DNA of 64,000 nt from Chloroflexota bacterium. GTDB lineage: Bacteria > Chloroflexota > Anaerolineae > B4-G1 > DUEL01. This document shows, piece by piece, positions 19,314 through 47,842 of this stretch. Numbering within the stretch: the first letter of the stretch is position 1; each line of letters starts with the position of its first letter. The notes beneath the pieces were generated by a model that was not told the DNA's origin, did no database searches, and worked only from the letters and a program-made list of their open reading frames with translations. A program made the position numbers and the translations under genes. Where the stretch lies: the NCBI GenBank assembly GCA_014874475.1, contig JADBJJ010000027.1:283793-347792 (forward strand), read 5' to 3'.

Positions 19314-19355
19314 ATTCTCCCAAAGTGTACCAGAAATTGGATAGTTGTCCAGCCC

Positions 19356-19488
19356 GGTCGTCTCTCCAGAGAGGGTTGCTGAATATTCGCCGCCGCGCAA
19401 GAATGCCGGGTTCCGTTTCTGGATAAGGGCGGGCGTACCATCCAGCATATTGGCCCCCCTTGCTCCCTCCCTCCACGGCTGCGCCGCC
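19356..19488. repeat. Half-copy of the MITE-like repeat
   Basis: About 130 bases here match 47395-47525 with roughly 85-90% identity by eye. The best-conserved core covers GCCGCGCAAGAATGCCGGGTT and CGTACCATCCAGCATAT. Only the left half of the 47.4-kb element is present; the right inverted arm was not found. It lies just upstream of the liv promoter. Confidence 0.75.
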
Positions 19489-47374: not shown

Positions 47375-47707
47375 TTCAGGGCGGGCGGCAAAGCGGTAGT
47401 CTCCCCATAGAAGGTTACTGAATCTTCACCGCCGCGCAAGAATGCCGGGTTCCGTTTTCGGGATTAGGGCCGGCGTACCATCCAGCATATGGCCCCCCTG
47501 CCCCCATTCTCCCACGGCTGCGCCGTGCGGGGAGGGGGATTTGGGACTCTTCCCCCTTCTCCCCCGCCGCAGCGGGGGAGGAGAAGGCCCAGGGGATGAG
47601 GGGCGCTGAAAGCCCCATTCTGGGCCAGCATAAACTCGGCGACCAACAGCGTTATATTTTCAGCAACCCTCAGGAGGGAGACCACTGGCAAAGCTGCCCG
47701 CCCTGAA
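47375..47707. mobile_element. MITE-like non-autonomous element with long imperfect inverted termini
   Basis: The 333-base element begins TTCAGGGCGGGC and ends with the exact complement. About 45-50 bases at each end pair imperfectly, covering a GTAGTCTCC/GTGGTCTCC segment and GGTTACTGAA/GGTTGCTGAA. The inside holds a second palindrome (47555-47587) and no protein-coding gene. Its left half is repeated at 19356-19488. No unambiguous target-site duplication was seen. The tRNA-Glu promoter begins 17 bases after it. Confidence 0.7.
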
Positions 47708-47723: not shown

Positions 47724-47751
47724 TTGACGGTAAAGAGCTTTGTGATAGAAT
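47724..47751 (+). promoter_or_regulatory. Promoter of tRNA-Glu
   Basis: TTGACG (47724-47729), a 16-base spacer and TAGAAT (47746-47751) lie 15 bases upstream of the tRNA. Confidence 0.7.
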
Positions 47752-47765
47752 AAAGATACCATAAC

Positions 47766-47839
47766 GCCCCCATCGTCTAGCCAGGTTAGGACACAGGCCT
47801 TTCAAGCCTGAAACACGGGTTCAAATCCCGTTGGGGGTA
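47766..47839 (+). tRNA. tRNA-Glu (anticodon UUC)
   Basis: Acceptor stem GCCCCCA/TGGGGGT, anticodon stem CAGGC/GCCTG with loop CTTTCAA, T-arm ACGGG-TTCAAAT-CCCGT. The 3' end reads ACCT, so CCA is not encoded. Confidence 0.95.
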
Positions 47840-47842
47840 CCT

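Follow-up and report, generated by a model that had tools for sequence, protein, structure and literature searches.

The window analyzed here, a 64,000-nucleotide stretch of a Chloroflexota bacterium genome (GenBank assembly GCA_014874475.1, contig JADBJJ010000027.1), carries a tRNA-Glu (ttc) gene at 47766–47841 on the forward strand, preceded by a promoter-like site (47724–47751, forward strand) that is conserved in two congeners. Upstream of this site, and not including it, lies a 292-bp MITE (47395–47686, forward strand), delimited by the ends that are common to dispersed copies and by a flanking 8-bp duplication. The MITE ends 37 bp ahead of the -35-like box of tRNA-Glu and both promoter and gene are intact, in agreement with a preliminary description of this DNA that had placed a repeat just before the tRNA-Glu promoter, in a region that we found to be shared with the same two congeners. 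The terminal inverted repeats are imperfect and span approximately 28 nt (GGTNGTCTCCC...TTGCTGAA). Both were located with the consensus and by pattern match, the left one (47395–47422, forward strand) with 2 mismatches (G000:C22:331187) and the right one (47659–47686, reverse strand) with 1 mismatch (G000:C22:331451-331478). Flanking them is the target duplication GGCAAAGC (47387–47394 on the left, 47687–47694 on the right), the 2 copies of which are identical at 8 of 8 positions. The ends of the 292-nt unit pair, and its folding was better than that of all 200 shuffled sequences (z -3.87). As had been described, the interior is non-coding and holds a further palindrome: among the ORFs of at least 40 amino acids, none longer than 75 amino acids falls within the element, which has no transposase gene, and the palindrome lies at 47556–47583. 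Folding, this inverted repeat and the alignment of copies define 2 internal hairpins in series (47506–47583), whose number and type differ among copies. An Rfam scan of the window returned three tRNAs and no other match.

The outer arms and the empty site

The preliminary description had taken the element to be 333 bases long, with imperfect inverted ends of approximately 45 bases starting with TTCAGGGCGGGC. Pairing does extend outward from the MITE, because the 15-nt outer arms (47375–47389 and 47693–47707, the first two bases of the latter overlapping the right duplication) are 93% complementary. The pairing across approximately 45 bases is a composite of a 15-nt hairpin arm and the true terminal repeat of approximately 28 nt, and the direct 8-bp duplication lies where the two meet. 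Deleting the element and one GGCAAAGC in silico yields a 33-nt hairpin (15-bp stem, AAA loop), and the joined empty site, folded together with short flanks, reaches -34.4 kcal/mol (z -6.5). The TTCAGGGCGGGC arms belong to this older 33-nt hairpin, which the insertion split into two halves. When the 333-base sequence was used as query, the alignments of other copies began at position 20–26 or later and ended near position 311; we take for chance extension 2 slight overruns, one beginning at position 10 and one ending at position 315. Because these alignments stop at the inner ends and the sequence beyond is different in each copy when the copies are lined up by their ends, the outer arms are not part of the element. 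A 333-base MITE truly ending in TTCAGGGCGGGC would account for the pairing of the outer arms across 15 nt, but it is already refuted by the other copies found in the genome, which, apart from the 2 slight overruns, end at the inner ends. The direct duplication that separates the outer arms from the inner ends, and the two congeners with a hairpin but no element at the same position, also contradict it, and we consider it almost certainly wrong.

The genus was compared using 7 genomes, that of the window included, and the tRNA-Glu locus with its neighbours was found in 3 congeners. In 2 of them (G004 and G001), a hairpin precedes the conserved tRNA promoter, and the element is absent; the stems of these hairpins differ in sequence while pairing is kept. 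In the third (G003), the upstream gene is close to the tRNA and, according to the alignment coordinates, there is neither hairpin nor element. The remaining 3 congeners gave no usable locus, 2 of them matching only approximately 75 bases around the tRNA and one giving no match. Because the element is missing from the tRNA-Glu place in G004, G001 and G003, it would either have arrived after the split from these congeners or have been lost in them, and the duplication speaks for arrival. We rejected a general preference of the family for insertion into hairpins: the mean folding energy of 12 rebuilt empty sites was -18.8 kcal/mol, whereas local control windows averaged -24.9 kcal/mol. The empty site at 47387–47694 alone was more structured than nearly all of its local controls, and 6 of the 12 ranked in the least structured few per cent. 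Within the window, there was also no support for the target hairpin as a separate dispersed repeat, the outer arm not being in excess there (20 matches versus a shuffle mean of 16.9).

Copies of the element in the genome

The 333-base query gave 49 matches in the genome of the window, and the consensus query gave 43, which we merged by hand into 37 places. Further copies with both ends, for which a genome search had been suggested, are indeed present: 12 places are two-ended, 14 retain only the left end, 9 only the right end and 2 are internal, 25 of the 37 thus being without at least one end. Copies are 70–97% identical to the consensus, and when aligned by their ends they share the left-end sequence GGTNGTCTCCCCATAGAGGGTTGCTGAAT... 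and the right-end sequence ...TTTTCAGCAACACTCAGGAGGGAGACNACC, with variation. The two-ended copies measure 132–292 bp and are distinguished by internal deletions and by which internal hairpins they contain, the window copy being the only one of the 12 with 2 hairpins in series. Conservation is high across the first approximately 70 nt of the left end, one-ended copies included, and the copies have many different truncation points. One truncated copy with only the left end is located in the window itself (19356–19486, forward strand, 86% identity) and has no right-end remnant above shuffles; it corresponds to the recurrence of the left half previously reported at 19356–19488, which our search recovered at approximately 19355–19486. 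The terminal pattern matched 39 times in this genome compared with 0 for the reversed pattern, which exceeds chance expectation, and it is present in 16 of 60 genomes, including that of the window. An exact long left-end pattern gave 0 matches in a contig collection that may omit records of or near this genome. Among the 6 other genomes of the genus, 2 gave no match to the element and 4 gave 13 weak matches, all to the internal hairpin part (query positions 111–230). The internal hairpins of the window copy (47506–47583) resemble G+C-rich palindromes in 4 of these 6 genomes, as though the MITE harboured another, nested palindromic repeat.

Target duplications were analyzed in the 12 two-ended copies by searching for the best 8-bp flank match, with each boundary free to move by up to 4 bases, and 132 mismatched pairs, in which the left flank of one copy was compared with the right flank of another, served as control. 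The duplication was perfect in 4 of the 12 copies and matched at 7 positions in 2, at 6 in 3 and at 5 in 3. In the mismatched pairs there was no perfect match, and 7 and 6 positions matched in 4 and 21 pairs, respectively. At least 7 of 8 positions were therefore duplicated in 6 of the 12 copies versus 4 of the 132 mismatched pairs, while the other 6 copies reached no more than 5 or 6 matching positions, little above the mismatched pairs. Thirteen left-only places, all but C1:96400, were checked for remnants of the right end; apart from a weak case in L028 (24 versus 22), none exceeded the shuffle maximum, and the flanking 8-mer had no second copy. We thus rejected one-ended transposition as the source of the one-ended copies, for which ordinary decay suffices.

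IS1-like elements and other elements with the same ends

The terminal repeat of the MITE also bounds IS1-like elements of approximately 1.17–1.20 kb. One is present in the genome of the window (C11:2276-3457, L052:2276-3457), where both ends enclose 2 open frames, and three in the named MAGs Chloroflexi bacterium HyVt-449 (L129:1653-2847), Caldilineae bacterium G439 (L130:2428-3619) and Anaerolineae bacterium SJ583 (L131:169-1333). A contig scan with an OrfA alignment had given 14 loci, of which these three have both ends, 1165–1195 bp apart. OrfA matches the NCBIfam IS1 transposase model NF033558 at 5.7e-16 to 2.9e-16 with 59–60 bits, below the cut-off of 100; the protein of the window's genome (5.7e-16) also matches the IS1/IS1595 zinc domain. 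OrfB did not match any family model. It resembles a plasmid gene named IS1 transposase (30.5% identity). Of 18 plasmid records with a relative, 12 were listed, and this is the single informative name among them, most other matches being unnamed. OrfB of L129 carries IERSHLTSRLFNGRQVRKTLAFSK, which we take to be typical of IS1 C-termini.

Members of the IS1 family generate target duplications of 8–9 bp and connect their 2 frames through a -1 shift at an A run. L129 is flanked by the perfect duplication CAATTCCA(G), and no clear one was found for L130, L131 or the C11 element (1 of the 4). In all 4 elements, OrfA and OrfB overlap at an A7 run, and OrfB lies in the -1 frame. The second frame of L127/L086 is displaced by one additional base, which indicates that this arrangement is not universal. 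The A7 run with the -1 frame, located inside the catalytic domain, may reflect programmed frameshifting. As we read it, the frame changes after the first catalytic D motif, and in this the elements differ from E. coli IS1. Two contig ends of the window's genome (C7:1-76, L050; C11:150929-151004, L051) are identical across 76 bases, open with a MITE-like terminal repeat and lead on to what are probably a promoter, a ribosome site and an ATG; they probably represent a multi-copy IS that was collapsed during assembly and interrupted it. Further IS1-like transposases of other subgroups are encoded at C6:28592-29550 (L102, L179), where L102 carries the related end GGTGGTCACTCCCTTGAGTATTG, and at C31:49526-49837 (L113).

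Short pairs of the same ends around other interiors occur in the genome of the window (L053:544-708, 165 bp) and in G003, G008, G011, G021, G030 and G053. Nine such pairs were tested, and 4 have a duplication of at least 7 of 8 positions (L077:754-904, 8/8; L076:1225-1392, 8/9; L083:1501-1650 and L081:1501-1686, both 7/8); in the other 5 the match is 5 to 7 of 8–9. The interiors of these small elements are unrelated. It is conceivable, as a tentative idea that we do not favour, that IS1-like elements repeatedly founded MITE families sharing only the ends of approximately 28 nt around arbitrary hairpin-rich DNA, the ends alone being sufficient, and that the conserved left 70 nt would here be an extra transposase-binding or RNA part.

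Origin of the element and relation to known systems

Judged by its sequence, 47395–47686 is a real non-autonomous transposable element, with ends that differ from those first read. This agrees with the class that the preliminary description had given it, and we base it on the dispersed copies, the defined ends, the 8-bp duplication, the congeners without the element and the IS with the same terminal repeat. It has the features by which MITEs are recognized, being short and without a transposase gene, with shared inverted ends, a constant 8-bp duplication, dispersed copies and an autonomous partner with the same ends. Very probably, this MITE was moved in trans by an IS1-family transposase into the hairpin upstream of tRNA-Glu, and the family then mostly decayed. 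The comparisons of sequence demonstrate a dispersed family with shared ends and 8-bp duplications, an element-free hairpin in two sister species and an IS with the same ends; from these we infer the movement in trans. The transposase, supplied by the same-ended elements of approximately 1.2 kb, would have bound both ends of the MITE and linked these to the hairpin at a staggered 8-bp break, and gap repair would have produced the GGCAAAGC duplication. The family would then have mostly ceased moving, decaying by internal deletion and end loss.

The MITE and the IS share only the terminal 28 nt or so, and the MITE interior matches no known source. This leaves some room for the same MITE having been mobilised by a transposase that is not IS1-like, of another DDE family making 8-bp duplications, since such duplications are also produced by families other than IS1. 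However, the same terminal repeat directly flanks IS1-like transposase genes in 4 elements, one of them in the genome of the window, so that we consider a mover of another family improbable. Slightly less probable still is that a structured RNA or a regulatory repeat has been retained for its function, its spread being only incidental. The folding in excess of shuffles and the conservation of the left-end 70 nt, also in one-ended copies, are compatible with such a role, but inverted ends and internal hairpins already predict excess folding, the Rfam scan of the window matched nothing besides the tRNAs, and the copies are truncated at many points. Movement by an IS1-like transposase remains our preferred reading.

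The present analysis identifies the repeat, corrects its ends and assigns a likely transposase, and the split hairpin, which mimics longer inverted ends, is a clean example of a trap for MITE annotation that relies on a single copy. IS1111 inserts into a GTAG-type REP of a MITE, as described in PMC10969869; the window copy likewise sits in a hairpin, but its family differs from such palindrome-targeting IS in having no general hairpin preference. Compared with the IS1 family as modelled by NF033558, the likeness lies in OrfA of L129–L131 and of the C11 element, which carry the MITE terminal repeat; the MITE itself differs by being without a transposase gene, and the partner OrfA by scoring under the family cut-off. 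PMC3852290 tabulates prokaryotic MITEs for which an autonomous IS partner is named, and the MITE resembles those of that table in size range, inverted ends, direct repeats and ends shared with an IS, while none of the 18 rows consulted has an IS1-family partner. The partners given in the relevant portions of PMC3718332, PMC10969869, PMC11448079 and PMC3852290 belong to IS4, IS5, IS1595, ISL3 and others, not IS1. A full-text literature search returned no report of an IS1-linked MITE, which is not proof of absence in print, and IS1-linked MITEs seem to be little described. The element represents a new MITE family of a well-known kind, the link to IS1 being its less common part.
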